A stretch of 23,877 nucleotides of DNA, from positions 1-23,877 of the IMG/VR virus record IMGVR_UViG_3300011115_000569; one strand, given 5' to 3'. Shown here piece by piece: positions 3,109 to 21,574 of the stretch. Within the stretch, counting starts at the first letter, position 1; each line of letters begins with the position of its first letter. This stretch comes from a virus. The translations under genes were made by a program, and so were the position numbers. The notes below the pieces were generated by a model that was not told where the DNA came from, did not search any database, and saw only the letters and a program-made list of their open reading frames with translations.

Positions 3109-4065
3109 TTAGTGGGGGCGCAAAAATTCCCGTACGGGCTGTGGGTCATCTACCGGGTACATCCCAAGCTGCAACCTTGGCGACGGGCTGGGTAGCGGTT
3201 GTAGAACTTGTGGTGTGGACGCTAAAGCTTCATCTGGTACTCTACGTTGCTGCGGTTGAGGTGGGCCATACGGATTCTGCATTTGATACGGACTGTATTG
3301 CTGTGGTTGTCTATACCCGCCTTGTTGACCGTAGCCACCCATACCGCCATAGCCTTGCTGCTGACCATAGCCACCCATACCGCCTTGACGACCATAGCCT
3401 TGTTGCTGTCCGTAGCCTCCATAGCCCTGTTGCTGTCCGTAGCCTTGTTGCTGTCCGTAGCCCCCGTAGCCCTGTTGCTGTTCGTAGCCTTGTTGCTGTC
3501 CGTAGCCTCCGTAGCCTTGTGGTTGTCCATAGCCGTCATAACCTTGCTGTTGCCCGTAGCCGCCGTAGCCACCTTGCTGTCCGTAACCACCTTGTTGACC
3601 ATAGCCTTGTTGTTGACCATAGCCCCCATAACCACCTTGCTGTCCATACCCACCCATACCACCTTGTTGACCATAGCCTTGTTGTTGACCATAACCACCA
3701 AATCCTTGCTGTCCATAGCCCTGCTGTTGACCGTAACCTTGCTGTTGACCGTAGCCACCAAAACCCTGTTGTCCGTAGCCACCTTGTGGATTAAAGTTTT
3801 GTTGCCCATAGCCACCAAAACCTTGTTGCTGACCAAACCCACCTTGTTGACCAAAGCTTTGTTGTTGTTGTTGTCCAAAACCACCAAACCCACCTTGTTG
3901 ACCAAAGCCACCTTGTTGACCAAAGCCACCTTGTTGACCAAAGCCGCCCATGCCGCCCTGTTGTCCAAAACCAAAGTTTTGTTGCGGCTGCTGCTGTTGA
4001 CCAAAGCCACCTTGCTGTGGTTGCTGTTGATCAAACCCCGACCTTGGTTTTTCAAATGTTTTCAT
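3109..4065 (-). CDS. Gly/Gln/Tyr-rich repeat protein (prion-like low-complexity), 318 aa
   Basis: Residues about 19-253 are almost entirely Gly, Gln, Tyr and Phe in short repeats. The first third uses GFGQQG units; from about residue 86 the units become GYGQQQ, often spaced by a second GY. Occasional M, R, D or E residues interrupt. The charged N-terminus is [12 protein letters not shown]. The C-terminal tail (about 254-318) is Pro/Gln-rich and ends [21 protein letters not shown], a copy of part of the zinc-ribbon protein. The composition resembles eukaryotic FUS/EWS-type low-complexity domains, but no homology is implied. Its start overlaps the preceding stop (TAATG). It lies in the virion operon, so a structural or packaged role is plausible but inferred. 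Repeat slippage could change its length. Confidence 0.82.
3128..3175. repeat. 48-bp duplication, copy at the 3' end of the Q-rich gene
   Basis: This is the second copy of 1869-1916 (47 of 48 bases match). Here it forms the extreme C-terminus of the low-complexity protein, just before FLRPH and the stop. It looks like a fused fragment of the zinc-ribbon gene. Confidence 0.93.
3307..4011. repeat. Coding minisatellite (GFGQQ/GYGQQ units)
   Basis: The DNA consists of short tandem units, best seen at about 3890-3945. There an 18-bp unit encoding GFGQQG on the minus strand recurs with almost no change. Elsewhere units of 12-18 bp alternate. Because the units have few stop codons in any frame, long false reading frames appear on both strands here. 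Confidence 0.85.
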
Positions 4066-16659: not shown

Positions 16660-16890
16660 ATGAAAACCACCATCATGGGTGTCGAGTACACCATCATCCG
16701 CAGGCAACCCCTGCGTAATGACCCATCTTACTGGGTCATCCATGCCGTGAGCATGGACGGCAGAACCACCGCGCACAGTAGCACCGAGGCTTTCCTCGGG
16801 TGGGCAGAGCGTGAAGGCATGGCCCAACGCTCCGAACGCCGCCCTATGGGTGTGATGAGGGCCGCACTTTTGCGTGCTGGTTTGCAGTAA
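16660..16890 (+). CDS. Hypothetical early protein, 76 aa
   Basis: This is a 76-residue protein: MKTTIMGVEYTIIRRQPLRN, DPSYWVIHAVSMDGRTTAHS, STEAFLGWAEREGMAQRSER and a MGVMRAALLRAGLQ end. A three-strand sheet followed by one or two helices seems likely, with a basic C-terminus. I do not recognise the family. GAGGAG precedes the ATG by 6 nt. It lies between palindrome copy 3 and the structured region at 16903-16969, in a series of small early genes of the kind that often inhibit host functions. Confidence 0.7.
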   Translation: MKTTIMGVEYTIIRRQPLRNDPSYWVIHAVSMDGRTTAHSSTEAFLGWAEREGMAQRSERRPMGVMRAALLRAGLQ

Positions 16891-16902
16891 TCTCGCCCAA
16901 GG

Positions 16903-16969
16903 GGGGTGGCCCACCTTTTTCCTGCAATGTCCAAGACTAATGGGCGCTGTACAGGAAGTGGGCTACCCC
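16903..16969 (+). ncRNA. Long stem-loop, possible structured RNA
   Basis: The 12-nt arms 16903-16914 and 16958-16969 pair throughout, with one G-U pair that works only in plus-strand RNA. After a small internal loop, TTCCTG (16919-16924) pairs with CAGGAA (16952-16957), leaving a 27-nt apical loop. It starts 12 bases after a stop codon. No T-tract follows, so it is not a standard terminator. Confidence 0.45.
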
Positions 16970-17009
16970 TAAGTTGTTGTTCTATAAGCGGTTCCAGCGG
17001 GGGGTGTCC

Positions 17010-17044
17010 TATATATATAATTAAATAGATTTACTTTATATATA
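17010..17044. other. AT-rich cruciform-like palindrome
   Basis: The outer arms TATATATAA and TTATATATA flank an inner palindrome TAAAT-AG-ATTTA (17022-17033). The segment is almost pure A/T in an otherwise GC-balanced window, and could be a DNA-unwinding element or a protein-binding site. Confidence 0.5.
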
Positions 17045-17110
17045 CAGCAATCTCCTTTTATCCATTCGTTCTTTCTTTTGCGTTTGATTTAATAGAAGAT
17101 TACAAGGTCT

Positions 17111-17138
17111 TTGGTTTATTTATATTTGAGTGTATACT
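17111..17138 (+). promoter_or_regulatory. Promoter candidate with AGTGTATACT element
   Basis: The -10 TATACT (17133-17138) lies in an AGTGTATACT identical to that of the capsid-downstream promoter. The -35, TTGGTT (17111-17116), is 16 bp away and weak. The AT-rich DNA upstream could aid opening. Confidence 0.4.
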
Positions 17139-17151
17139 TGGGACAGGAGCC

Positions 17152-17322
17152 ATGCGAACCCTTGTGCCACAGGGGTTTGATGGTAGCCCACCTCTTGTCC
17201 TAGCACCTGTAGTCTGGGACATCGTTAGACATTTACTGGGCCACCCCCCACCCAAAAAGCAGCGGGAGAACGGTTCTCCCCCTAAAAAGGAGCCGATATG
17301 GTTGAATCTTACGCAGCGCTAA
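17152..17322 (+). CDS. Possible small ORF spanning palindrome copy 4, 56 aa
   Basis: The frame MRTLVPQGFDGSPPLVLAPV continues VWDIVRHLLGHPPPKKQREN and GSPPKKEPIWLNLTQR. AGGAG sits only 2 bases before the ATG, which is too close for good initiation. The frame runs through palindrome copy 4 and overlaps the next gene's start by 25 bases. A short VWDIVRHLLG helix is the only fold-like element. It may be a real leader peptide behind the 17111-17138 promoter, or chance. Confidence 0.3.
   Translation: MRTLVPQGFDGSPPLVLAPVVWDIVRHLLGHPPPKKQRENGSPPKKEPIWLNLTQR
17262..17282 (+). repeat. Intergenic palindrome copy 4
   Basis: The core is the same, with one mismatch in the outer arm (C at 17263). It lies 15 bases before the next ATG. 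It falls inside the small ORF at 17152-17322 and is read as RENGSPP. Confidence 0.85.
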
Positions 17323-18089
17323 CGCCAAAAGCGTTAGTAAACCACCTTGCCAAGCGCAAGGTTCCGCTTGTTATGGTGCAAGCCATACAAGCTCGTGCTG
17401 CCCAACAACGTGCGTTCAAGCGTTCCGATACGGGAACAAAGCGAACGCACAAGGAGTTGTGGGGCAATCTGCTGTTCCCCTTGCGTTATGAGCGCAACAA
17501 TGTGAAGTCAGGCCTGAAGTACGCAGGTGATGGCGCAAGGGGTGAGGCAATGCACAGTTATCTCATTGTGTTGGAGGAGTTGCTCCATCGGCTGAACATG
17601 CACGCCACAGCCCGTATTCTGACCCCACGCCAACTGTGCAAGGAGCGCAACGAGTCTGGCCGAGGCGCACACATACCCAATGCGGGAACCCATTGGTCTG
17701 ATTGGGTTCCGCAGCACATCAAACTGAGGGTGTGTGTCCTGTTTGACGCCATACCCTATAAACAGCGTGCGAAACGCAAGCTACCTTTCCAGCGTGCCAT
17801 ACCCCCGCTGTTGTACAGCAGGCTGTACGTAGCCCTTGGCTTGCGGACGCAGGGGTTCTTGGGCGCAGCACAGCGCAAGCATGCCGTTGCGCCCACTGAG
17901 GAGACAGCCGCCACTGTTGCAGCCATACAACAAGCGCTGGCTGTCTTGCAAGAGTGGCCCCGCAACACAGCCCTGCCCTACGCATGGCAGAGCCTTGTGG
18001 CAACCAATATCAAACAGGGGGAGAACCGTTCTCCCCCTGCTGGAAGCGGACGACCGCTAACAACGGGGGGGAAACCCCCCATAACCTAG
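17298..18089 (+). CDS. Hypothetical basic early protein, 263 aa
   Basis: I do not recognise this protein. It is basic and helical: PKALVNHLAKRKVPLVMVQA, IQARAAQQRAFKRSDTGTKR, THKELWGNLLFPLRYERNNV and GEAMHSYLIVLEELLHRLNM. A conserved-looking GAHIPNAGTHWSDWVPQHIK segment and a QQALAVLQEWPRNTALPYAW helix follow. The last 24 residues (QGENRSPPAGSG...) are encoded by palindrome copy 5 and a second GC stem, so the natural end may once have been near ATNIK. AAGGAG lies upstream. The charge and Trp-rich middle suggest nucleic-acid or host-protein binding, but no motif is clear. Confidence 0.7.
   Translation: MVESYAALTPKALVNHLAKRKVPLVMVQAIQARAAQQRAFKRSDTGTKRTHKELWGNLLFPLRYERNNVKSGLKYAGDGARGEAMHSYLIVLEELLHRLNMHATARILTPRQLCKERNESGRGAHIPNAGTHWSDWVPQHIKLRVCVLFDAIPYKQRAKRKLPFQRAIPPLLYSRLYVALGLRTQGFLGAAQRKHAVAPTEETAATVAAIQQALAVLQEWPRNTALPYAWQSLVATNIKQGENRSPPAGSGRPLTTGGKPPIT
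18017..18037 (+). repeat. Palindrome copy 5 (inside a coding frame)
   Basis: This is a perfect 10-bp inverted repeat around one base, extended by A/T. Unlike the first three copies it is inside the reading frame of the 263-aa gene, where it encodes GENRSPP. Confidence 0.88.
18065..18080 (+). other. GC stem-loop at the end of the 263-aa gene
   Basis: A seven-G run pairs with six C residues around AAA. It overlaps the last codons of the 263-aa frame and lies just before the TAGGAGA of the next gene. Confidence 0.55.
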
Positions 18090-18100
18090 GAGAGAGTGAC

Positions 18101-18310
18101 ATGAGAACAGTATCAATTGGCAAATTCAAAGAGGACGGGACAGCAGTTCAGGTGGTGTGCACCCTGAACAACAACGATGGACTCATACCCCCTGCTGCGT
18201 TCGAAGCCATCGTTGAGAGCACAGCGTTGGCCTTGGCTGTGCATCTGGGCGAGTGGGAAACAGTAATCATGGAGCGCCAAGACGCCCCGGACTGCGTAGA
18301 CGTAGAGTAA
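18101..18310 (+). CDS. Hypothetical small protein, 69 aa
   Basis: I start at MRTVSIGKFKEDGTAVQVVC because TAGGAGAGAG lies just upstream. The longer open frame back to 17954 only overlaps the previous gene. The protein appears to be a small alpha/beta fold: a strand pair, then FEAIVESTALALAVHLGEWE as a helix, then TVIMERQD and an acidic tail. I know no family for it. It directly precedes the amidoligase gene, separated by a stem-loop, so it could be an accessory to that system, though only position suggests so. Confidence 0.65.
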   Translation: MRTVSIGKFKEDGTAVQVVCTLNNNDGLIPPAAFEAIVESTALALAVHLGEWETVIMERQDAPDCVDVE

Positions 18311-18320
18311 AAACCCGTAG

Positions 18321-18337
18321 CCGGTGCGGTTCACCGG
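18321..18337 (+). other. Stem-loop CCGGTG/CACCGG before amidoligase gene
   Basis: A perfect 6-bp stem with a 5-nt loop lies 26 bases ahead of the amidoligase ATG. No T-tract follows, so it is not a terminator of the usual kind. Confidence 0.5.
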
Positions 18338-18363
18338 TGTGTTAGTTATATCAAGGAAACAAA

Positions 18364-19974
18364 ATGAAAATCTACTTAAGTAATTGTGGCAGCGTGCTCA
18401 AGGCACAGATCGCAGACGCCAGCACGCTGGTGCAGGTCACGGGTACGCTGGACGAGGGTTACAGGGAACTGCGGCACTACCTGCCAGAGCCCACGTTCTC
18501 CACCCCTGCGTTCACACCAGAGCAGGTCGGCCTGCTGAAGGCACGCAGTGGGGATGTGTACGGCCAGTTACTCAACGACATGGTCGATTTACTCTCAGCG
18601 TTCGCAGCACGGCGCATGCGCGGGCTCTGCCGCCGTTGGGCAGACAGGGGATACGGCCGTTCCCCCATGGCGCACTGTCGCGGGAACCGCTACGAATTGC
18701 ACGCCCAAGGGGTTAGCCGGTTCAGGGCAATGAAGGAGATGTGTCGTGCACTCAACGTGCATGTCAAAGCGGCCATCCAAGGTGATGCGTATGAGCTAGT
18801 CGAGTTCATCGTGGAGAACGATGGGAACGCCCTGATAGAACGGGTGTTCCCCAAGATAAGCCAGTTCGTTGACGGGCAGTTGGTCCTAGCAGATTGTGGG
18901 CACATCACCCGGCCCGATGCCATGATAGATGTGCACCGCACCATAAGGAGCATGAGCACGATGTGCGAGTACTGCTGTGGTGAAAATGCGGTGTACTGCG
19001 AGGATGCAGAGGCGTACTACTTAGAGTCTCGTGCATACCGGCACAGCGATGACAATTGGTATACGTATGAAGAAGACCGGGAGGAGGAGGAGGAGGAGGA
19101 GACTCCACACAACGGGCACTCCATGAGCTACTCCGCCGATGTCTTGCGGCATGCCGCTGCCGATGGGAGCATCCACAGTTCCAAGTACGGGGACTTCACG
19201 ATGGGCATTGAGTTGGAGATGGCCCCGGGGCGTGCGTCTAGGTACGATGCCATTGAGGATGTGCGGAACCAGCTTGGGCATGACTACTGCATCATCAAGG
19301 ACGATGGCAGCATCAGCGGGGTGAATGGCTTTGAGGTAGTGACTGCACCCCGTGGTTTGAAGGAGCACATCACCCGCTTCAAAGCATGGGATGTCAACAA
19401 GGCCTATCGTGCTTGGGATGTGGAGAAGTGCGGCACGCATGTGCACATCGACTCCCGTGCCTTCACTGAGTTGACTCTGGGCAAGTTCATCATGTTCATC
19501 AACTCCAACAACAACGCCGACTTCATCCGCAATATAGCAGGCAGGCATCCGCTCAAGGACAACCAAGCGAGGGAGTACTGTGCCAATGAGGAGCAGGGCA
19601 TCTTGGACAACCCCAAGCAGGCCATCCTCGGCAAGACGGCACAGCGCTACTACATGGTGAACCTGAACAACTTGGCTCATGACGAGTCCCGGCGCTTAGG
19701 GTTCAAGAGTACGTACACAGAGGGCAAGTACAACACGATAGAGCTTCGCATCTTCCGCGCCACACTCAAGAAGGAGCGCTTGCTTGCACAGATAGAGTTC
19801 ACCCATGCCAGTGTGCACTTCTGTCGCAGTGCGAGTTTCCGCGAACTCAACGGCACAGAGTTCGTGTCATGGCTCAAGACTACCAACAACGTATACCCAC
19901 ACCTGTCCGATTGGTACGGCACACGCCGTCCCAAGCAGGTTCCGCAATCCCCTGCACTCGCAACCACTGAATAA
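18364..19974 (+). CDS. Amidoligase-fold protein (COOH-NH2 ligase, GCS-like), 536 aa
   Basis: The C-terminal half carries the amidoligase / glutamate-cysteine-ligase-like signature: GIELEM (281-286, acidic E283/E285), KDDGSI (312-317), GFEVVTAP (322-329), CGTHVHID (356-363), YYMVNLNN (429-436) and NTIELRIFRAT (457-467). These residues bind ATP and metal in the family, which joins a carboxylate to an amine through an acyl-phosphate. The N-terminal half has a Cys/His cluster (C178-G-H180, C201-x2-C204-C205, C212) that could bind zinc, then an acidic EEDREEEEEEE run (236-246). The next gene is a class II glutamine amidotransferase 11 nt away, a pairing known from phage amidoligase systems. The substrate is unknown. 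AAGGA precedes the ATG. Confidence 0.83.
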   Translation: MKIYLSNCGSVLKAQIADASTLVQVTGTLDEGYRELRHYLPEPTFSTPAFTPEQVGLLKARSGDVYGQLLNDMVDLLSAFAARRMRGLCRRWADRGYGRSPMAHCRGNRYELHAQGVSRFRAMKEMCRALNVHVKAAIQGDAYELVEFIVENDGNALIERVFPKISQFVDGQLVLADCGHITRPDAMIDVHRTIRSMSTMCEYCCGENAVYCEDAEAYYLESRAYRHSDDNWYTYEEDREEEEEEETPHNGHSMSYSADVLRHAAADGSIHSSKYGDFTMGIELEMAPGRASRYDAIEDVRNQLGHDYCIIKDDGSISGVNGFEVVTAPRGLKEHITRFKAWDVNKAYRAWDVEKCGTHVHIDSRAFTELTLGKFIMFINSNNNADFIRNIAGRHPLKDNQAREYCANEEQGILDNPKQAILGKTAQRYYMVNLNNLAHDESRRLGFKSTYTEGKYNTIELRIFRATLKKERLLAQIEFTHASVHFCRSASFRELNGTEFVSWLKTTNNVYPHLSDWYGTRRPKQVPQSPALATTE

Positions 19975-19985
19975 GGATATCGACT

Positions 19986-21020
19986 ATGTGCCTCATCATT
20001 ACTGGCAAGTCTGCCAAGATTCGCAATACCCTGCTCAACACAGCCGGGTTACTCGACACCATCTACACATCCAACCCTGACGGGATTGGGCTGATGTACA
20101 GCACCGCCAAGGGACTCAAGACCGTCAAGGTGTTGCCCAAGTCGGCGGCAGATGCACGCGCCATCATCAACAAGATACCCAAGGATGCCCGTGAGATGGC
20201 GATCCACTTCCGCTGGGCGACACACGGCAAGACAGACCTGCACAACTGTCACCCTTACGATGTCATACCGGGCTATGTAGCCATGATGCACAACGGCGTG
20301 CTGCACACCAGCAACGAGGCTGACAAGGACAAGTCAGACACATGGCACTTCATCCATGACTACCTGTCAGAGTCTGTGCATATGGCCCCGGAATTGGTGT
20401 TCGTTGATGGGTTCCTTGCCATGATCGCTGAGTTCATTGGGGACAATCGGTTTGTGTTTATGAATGGCGAGGGGCGCATCAGCCATGTCAACAAGGACTC
20501 AGGCATTGAGCACGATGGCATGTGGTTCAGCAACACCTACGCATGGAAACCCGCACTGCTGATACCCACATACCGAGCACGCGCTGTGTCCTCACGCTAC
20601 CTCGGACCGTGGAACGACACAGACGAGGAAGATTATGGGTACTACAGCCGCAGCTTCAACGTGCACAACCCCCTCTCCGTAGCACCATTGAAGCCGCTTG
20701 TCACTGTAGAGGAGATCGCCACGCACCTTGAGGAATACAATGCGCCGGGGCTGTGTTACTTGCTAGAGGCGTTCCCCAGCACGACCGTACACCTGCTGTG
20801 CAAGAACTTCAGCCCGAGTCCCACCTCTGAGGCGTTTCGGGATGAGATCAGCGCACATGAGACGGCTGTGTACGACATGCTGCTGGAGCAGGACATGACG
20901 GGGTTGCTGACGTACCTAGCGCACTCCGCCTCCTCCGCTGCCACAGTGGCGGATGTGATCTGCTACTACCTCAACTGGGAGCGATGTGTGAGCACCCGGC
21001 CCAGCGTAACAGCCGTTTGA
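19986..21020 (+). CDS. Class II glutamine amidotransferase (Ntn hydrolase), 344 aa
   Basis: The start MCLIIT exposes Cys2 as the N-terminal nucleophile once Met is removed. The class II glutaminase motifs follow in order: NPDGIGL (30-36), HFRWATHG (74-81), NCHPY (87-91) and MMHNGVL (100-106). The arginine, HNG and DG elements position glutamine and form the oxyanion hole. The enzyme should release ammonia from glutamine. Residues about 200-344 are a phage-specific extension that I do not recognise. The gene starts 11 nt after the amidoligase stop, with AAGGA between. It likely feeds ammonia to the amidoligase or works on the same substrate. A strong terminator follows. Confidence 0.88.
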   Translation: MCLIITGKSAKIRNTLLNTAGLLDTIYTSNPDGIGLMYSTAKGLKTVKVLPKSAADARAIINKIPKDAREMAIHFRWATHGKTDLHNCHPYDVIPGYVAMMHNGVLHTSNEADKDKSDTWHFIHDYLSESVHMAPELVFVDGFLAMIAEFIGDNRFVFMNGEGRISHVNKDSGIEHDGMWFSNTYAWKPALLIPTYRARAVSSRYLGPWNDTDEEDYGYYSRSFNVHNPLSVAPLKPLVTVEEIATHLEEYNAPGLCYLLEAFPSTTVHLLCKNFSPSPTSEAFRDEISAHETAVYDMLLEQDMTGLLTYLAHSASSAATVADVICYYLNWERCVSTRPSVTAV

Positions 21021-21026
21021 CACCAT

Positions 21027-21049
21027 GCCGGGGGAGACCCCGGCTTTTT
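21027..21049 (+). terminator. Intrinsic terminator after the amidotransferase gene
   Basis: A seven-bp GC stem (21027-21033 with 21038-21044) with a GAGA tetraloop is followed at once by five T residues. It ends the amidoligase unit. A new promoter follows within 35 bp. Confidence 0.88.
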
Positions 21050-21077: not shown

Positions 21078-21107
21078 TTGACAAACAGTTCAGAGATCGG
21101 ATACGAT
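21078..21107 (+). promoter_or_regulatory. Sigma70 promoter for the wHTH-DUF932 unit
   Basis: A perfect -35 TTGACA (21078-21083) and a -10 TACGAT (21102-21107) are 18 bp apart, just behind a terminator and 26 bp before the next ATG. This is the best promoter match in the window and should be read by host RNA polymerase. Confidence 0.7.
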
Positions 21108-21133: not shown

Positions 21134-21574
21134 ATGAGTACCAATAAAGCACCGTGGACTGAGGTTCTTAAACAGTGGGAACCCACCCCCACTACAACGG
21201 TAACACCACCCGTTTTCCCAGTGACGAACAACGTCACTCGTGAGACGTTTGAGTGTGTCAAGAAGAACCCCGGGATAACAGCGCCGCAAGTCGTGGCGAT
21301 GCTGCCCAAACAAAAACCCACTTCGGTAACGTCCCTCTTAACGCAAATGGTTAAGAATGGGTTGTGCCGTAAAACAGACGAAAAGTTCTATGCCCTTGTT
21401 GACGAGTACCTTCCGTTGAAAAGAGCATACGCTAAATATAGAAACGCAACGGCAGTGCCGCGTTCCATCCCCGCACTGGAGCGACGACTTGCCCCGGCAA
21501 GCAACCTGATGATGTCTCTCAACGTGGTTGAGGCGCGTCTTTTGTACGATGAACTCAAGAAAGTTTTTAACTAA
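21134..21574 (+). CDS. Winged-helix DNA-binding-like protein, 146 aa
   Basis: After a Pro/Thr-rich N-terminal tail, residues about 34-88 look like a winged helix: VTRETFECVKKNPGITAPQV (helices 1-2), VAMLPKQKPTSVTSLLTQMV (recognition helix) and KNGLCRKTDEKFYALVD (wing). A further helical part ends VEARLLYDELKKVFN. GGAGAAGC precedes the ATG. This gene is first behind the strong promoter at 21078-21107. It could regulate phage or host promoters; the inverted repeats in the control region are possible targets. The fold call rests on pattern only. Confidence 0.68.
   Translation: MSTNKAPWTEVLKQWEPTPTTTVTPPVFPVTNNVTRETFECVKKNPGITAPQVVAMLPKQKPTSVTSLLTQMVKNGLCRKTDEKFYALVDEYLPLKRAYAKYRNATAVPRSIPALERRLAPASNLMMSLNVVEARLLYDELKKVFN

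Follow-up and report, generated by a model that had tools for sequence, protein, structure and literature searches.

An amidoligase-glutaminase gene pair in environmental phages, a minimal form of a known kind of phage system

Gene organization of the locus

The window, by which we mean the whole stretch of DNA analyzed here, is a 23.9-kb record (IMG/VR) of a freshwater phage in which the head genes (terminase, portal and major head protein) are on the minus strand and a block of plus-strand genes begins at about 15.4 kb. Within this block is a gene for an amidoligase of 536 amino acids (18364..19974, plus strand), followed after a gap of 11 nt by a gene for a class II glutamine amidotransferase of 344 amino acids (19986..21020, plus strand), called the glutaminase below. 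A preliminary description of this DNA had the coordinates, lengths and spacing of both genes right, and the single terminator that it placed at the end of the pair is real: the intrinsic terminator at 21027..21049 (plus strand) has a stem of seven G-C pairs followed by TTTTT, with a fold z of -3.3. Downstream of it are a promoter-like site at 21078-21107, of a kind no commoner than in shuffles, and then the next gene. This succession fits a transcription unit whose end is the ligase-glutaminase pair.

Conserved genes are found on both sides of the pair. The upstream 263-aa gene (17298-18089) is conserved in 54 related loci and had no match in a Pfam search; the downstream gene (21134-21574) is conserved in 66 related loci and has weak winged-helix-type matches. 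Both may be regulators of the same early block. Two near-identical hairpins, GGGAGAACGGTTCTCCC at 17264-17282 and GGGGGAGAACCGTTCTCCCC at 18017-18037, are located just before the 263-aa gene and near its end, respectively. The preliminary description had also pointed to a 69-aa ORF upstream of the ligase (18101-18310). This ORF is conserved in the nearest relatives only, and other, unrelated small genes occur at its position elsewhere; we therefore place it outside the ligase-glutaminase system and have rejected it as a peptide substrate or partner.

On the minus strand, positions 3109-4065 encode a 318-aa low-complexity repeat protein of prion-like composition, the C-terminal segment of which recurs in a 126-aa protein at 1691-2071. 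The single match to a genome contig was to a phage-bearing contig binned as Oxalobacteraceae, which is too weak for naming a host.

The ligase

An HMM search for Amidoligase_2, proposed in the preliminary description, placed the ligase over the curated Pfam cut-off (PF12224; 33.1 bits against 22, E-value 7.1e-8), and all 38 of the aligned relatives match the same model at E <= 0.01. The protein consists of a helical N-terminal region (residues 1-170), a region with a metal-site-like C-x-H...C-x2-C pattern (171-235), an acidic linker (about 236-252) and the ligase domain (about 273-523; 19180..19932, plus strand). The motifs previously read from the ligase (GIELEM, KDDGSI, CGTHVHID and NTIELRIFRAT) are all present. 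In the alignment of the 38 relatives, the invariant residues are G281, E283 and E285; K312, D314, G315 and S316; E324; C356, G357, H359 and H361; R394 and H395; N433; and E460, R462 and F464, giving the motif forms GxExE (281-285), KxDGS (312-316), CGxHxH (356-361), RH (394-395) and ExRxF (460-464). Many of these residues are retained in the distant proteins of the MEP phages and ctgrD200. They are the residues expected of a GCS/GS-type active site, and judged by this alignment the site is intact.

The AlphaFold (AF2) model of the ligase has a mean pLDDT of 82.9. Foldseek matched it to YbdK, glutamine synthetases, GmaS and the depupylase Dop, and its best matches among viral models were phage amidoligases. 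Realignment over residues 271-523 gave Z-scores of 10.3 for YbdK, about 10 for glutamine synthetase and 9.8 for plant glutamate-cysteine ligase. The top solved-structure match is among the YbdK/GCS2 carboxylate-amine ligases, with 216 residues of alignment to YbdK at an rmsd of 4.2. The relationship is visible through the fold search only, as a ligase profile found no matches among PDB sequences. YbdK differs from the phage ligase in sequence (13% identity) and in having no N-terminal metal-site region. To our knowledge, no pairing of YbdK/GCS2 ligases with a glutaminase has been described. Structure prediction had been set beforehand as the check on which the GCS/amidoligase assignment was to stand or fall, and the fold was found: as modeled, the ligase has a fold of the GCS/glutamine synthetase type. 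From its sequence and model, we infer that the ligase would form amide bonds in an ATP-dependent reaction.

Two features preceding the ligase domain had been singled out as odd. The Cys/His cluster at residues 178-212 reduces to a smaller set, C178-x-H180...C201-x2-C204 (codons 178-204; 18895..18975, plus strand), which is invariant in the 38 relatives. Such a set is as for a small metal site, and the four residues are a candidate zinc-binding site. As for the Glu-rich run, its acidic composition is kept (34-53% D/E in 38 of 38 relatives) but its sequence is not. Identity among the four closest relatives reaches 96-98% in the ligase domain and falls to 68-86% in residues 1-170.

The glutaminase

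The glutaminase consists of an Ntn domain (residues 1-199), a variable linker modeled with low confidence (about 200-240) and a helical C-terminal region (241-333). The Met-Cys start and the RWATHG and HNG motifs are present as described, and C2, R76, T79, H80, G81, H89, N103, G104 and D118 are invariant in a 34-member alignment. All of these except G81 align with E. coli GlmS residues, namely C1, R73, T76, H77, H86, N98, G99 and D123. On this alignment the active site is intact, with the cysteine directly after the initiator methionine. Across the four closest relatives, identity of the Ntn domain is 98%. In the AF2 model (mean pLDDT 79.2), residues 2-198 have an Ntn glutaminase fold, with matches to EgtC (Z 12.6), GlmS (Z 12.1), a YafJ-like protein (Z 11.0) and PurF (Z 10.6). 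Residues 241-333 are modeled mostly as confident helices, and searches of the whole protein identified no relative of this region.

The enzyme had been called a textbook class II glutaminase, a label that needs some softening in view of its Pfam scores, which are just under the cut-offs, and its Q-loop. GATase_4 is the best Pfam match (21.7 bits against a cut-off of 23), followed by GATase_6 (16.9 against 27), and 21 of the 34 family members match GATase_4 at E <= 0.01. Scores against the GlmS and PurF models (31 and 14.7 bits) are far below the respective cut-offs of 381 and 350. The Q-loop arginine of GlmS (Arg26) is replaced, aligning with Ser29 in the motif SNPDGIG, which is closer to the HKDGWG of E. 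coli YafJ than to the RGYDSAG of GlmS. Given these scores and the replaced arginine, we rejected membership of the GlmS or PurF subfamily.

Linkage and conservation of the pair

A search with the glutaminase alone found 79 viral loci, and the ligase is upstream in every locus where the contig reaches. We also searched with the ligase alone, using a profile led by the distant MEP proteins, and obtained 60 loci on contigs outside the glutaminase-search and terminase sets. The glutaminase is directly downstream in all 56 of these new contigs that have enough flank, at distances of -131 to +217 nt, mostly -14 to +59. Over all loci, the ligase has an adjacent glutaminase in 63 of 65; in the remaining two, a second ligase is directly before the glutaminase. 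Among relatives chosen for a close terminase, eight have neither gene, two have both, and none has one alone. These loci are not independent and many of the contigs are fragments; separate phage backbones are covered nonetheless. Absence of the pair from related phage genomes had been named in the preliminary description as grounds for refutation; the pair is in fact conserved both in relatives and in phages that are unrelated, the same gene order occurring in MEP401/402 (Zobellviridae), ctgrD200, Acinetobacter phage vB_AciJM_313 and Marvin. We conclude that adjacency of the two genes is near-obligate.

The dN/dS values of the ligase and glutaminase genes are 0.10-0.41, and both genes are under purifying selection. 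Chance is excluded as an explanation by these values together with the Pfam E-value of the ligase (7e-8), conservation in dozens of relatives, and the fold matches.

Comparison with known phage systems

The pair has been reported in the OM43 phages MEP401 and MEP402 as PF12224 plus PF13522 and classed as auxiliary metabolic genes (PMC10580990). These phages have the same two genes, adjacent and in the same order as in the window, but the ligase domains are about 31% identical and the glutaminase domains 31-33%, and both the N-terminal region of the ligase and the phage backbone are different. A larger amide-ligase cassette in phiEco32 and LUZ24 was described by Iyer et al. (2009), as cited in PMC5498523 and PMC10580990. 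What the preliminary description said of the amidoligase-GATase literature was right in substance: these two papers describe either the pair or the larger cassette, with reference to Iyer et al.

As in the window, the Amidoligase_2 gene of LUZ24 and phiEco32 adjoins a class II glutaminase gene, but their cassette has an additional COOH-NH2 ligase, an ATP-grasp enzyme and a gamma-glutamyl cyclotransferase. In 12 window-type, MEP-type or ctgrD200 records (37.7-68.2 kb, possibly incomplete), we found no match to PF14395 (COOH-NH2 ligase), GGACT, or an ATP-grasp profile from LUZ24/phiEco32 that was positive in the LUZ24 and phiEco32 controls. For this purpose the Pfam models RimK and R2K_2 were uninformative, since LUZ24 and phiEco32 themselves score below the cut-off of each. 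A larger cassette of the LUZ24 type in the window phage was rejected on these grounds, and the window represents a minimal two-gene form. When profiles of the window and LUZ24 ligases were compared, the central motifs alone aligned, with a probability of 24%. The Q-loop arginine is kept in the glutaminases of LUZ24, phiEco32 and one contig (L209), so that window-type glutaminases form a different subgroup. On this contig (L209:4351-11003), a COOH-NH2 ligase is accompanied by two amidoligases, of which the second has a Cys-rich N-terminus and directly precedes the glutaminase. The arrangement apparently stands midway from the minimal pair to the cassette of LUZ24.

More divergent arrangements were also encountered. 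In Mycobacterium phage Marvin, an amidoligase-like gene (gp105) directly precedes a glutaminase gene (gp106), as in the window, but gp105 is very divergent, with a PF12224 match of 19.5 bits that is below the cut-off of 22. Marvin gp105 (L091:6491-7852) is annotated as a "glutamine amidotransferase domain protein", yet it resembles a divergent amidoligase. A phage Tesla protein with the same length and name as Marvin gp105 is a structural match to the window ligase (E 1.8e-10). Acinetobacter phage vB_AciJM_313 seemingly has two amidoligase-glutaminase pairs (L089:1226-4139 and 16825-19798), and the ligase of the second, annotated as a "hypothetical protein", has a weak PF12224 match (19.8 bits).

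Possible function of the pair

That the active sites are intact and the genes almost invariably adjacent speaks for a single functional unit. On the alignments and models, this is probably a two-subunit enzyme in which glutamine hydrolysis is coupled to ATP-driven amide formation, a reading to which we assign a probability of about one half. Both proteins would be made early in infection. After loss of the first methionine of the glutaminase, its Cys2 would split L-glutamine and the ammonia would be handed to the ligase, which with ATP-Mg would activate a carboxylate as an acyl phosphate and seal the amide. The substrate or partner may be held by the metal-site region near the ligase's N-terminus and by the helices at the C-terminal end of the glutaminase. 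Secondary metabolites are among the suggested roles cited in PMC10580990. The published idea for the pair is that host material is modified in favor of the infecting phage. We consider a small peptide, an envelope precursor or a host metabolite to be the most likely substrate.

Ligases of the GCS type generally use a substrate that bears an amine, not free ammonia, which counts against ammonia transfer, as do the replaced Arg26 and the equally good fold match to EgtC, a gamma-glutamyl hydrolase. A gamma-glutamyl add-and-remove route accordingly remains the main rival: the ligase would tag the amine of a host molecule with glutamate via its gamma-carboxyl, and the Ntn enzyme would cleave the gamma-glutamyl amide, with no ammonia transfer. 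EgtA is GCS-like, and the EgtA/EgtC combination resembles the window pair in joining a GCS-type ligase with a partner of Ntn glutaminase fold. There is precedent for such a route, as EgtA makes gamma-glutamylcysteine and EgtC, of the glutamine amidotransferase type, takes the glutamyl part off (PMC10805701). In the fold search the glutaminase domain matched EgtC best, in a tie with GlmS, and the GATase_4 match and the YafJ-like Q-loop point the same way. However, EgtA and EgtC belong to a different pathway, and sequence similarity of the glutaminase to EgtC was not detected; outside the fold search its matches are GlmS and PurF, and its RWATHG motif is GlmS-like. No third enzyme for a step in between is linked to the pair. 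We regard this route as possible but rather doubtful.

Another proposal is about the target and could hold under either chemistry. The pair could be a reduced version of the phiEco32/LUZ24 "peptidoglycan modification cassette", acting on cell-wall peptides so as to block other phages. Cell-wall change against superinfection is published (PMC5498523, PMC10580990), and it is inside this cassette that the LUZ24 and phiEco32 amidoligase adjoins the glutaminase. Against this, the other three cassette members were not found in the 12 records, the profile similarity to the LUZ24 ligase is weak, and nothing at the locus indicates peptidoglycan, so we hold the proposal only tentatively. The pair is early and near replication genes, as might suit a pathway of DNA-base hypermodification of the deazaguanine type. 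Some such pathways use an amidotransferase, and phage amidotransferase genes have precedent there. QueC was present in none of the 12 related records (which may be incomplete) and in all 12 control genomes; we rejected this explanation as very improbable.

Conclusions

The ligase-glutaminase pair is real and is a further example of a kind of phage system that has been described before. Already in print are the pair in OM43 phages (PMC10580990) and the larger cassette in podoviruses (PMC5498523). With the window, the two-gene form extends to a large clade of environmental phages. The two genes are very tightly linked across backbones and hosts, in freshwater contigs and in marine OM43, Acinetobacter and Mycobacterium phages. 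Being spread over such differing backbones and hosts, the pair must serve something useful in infection. The evidence narrows the system to a minimal two-protein form, with intact active sites, that is fit for direct biochemical testing, and raises gamma-glutamyl hydrolysis as a concrete alternative to the glutaminase serving as an ammonia donor. If that alternative is true, the pair would be the phage counterpart of EgtA/EgtC.
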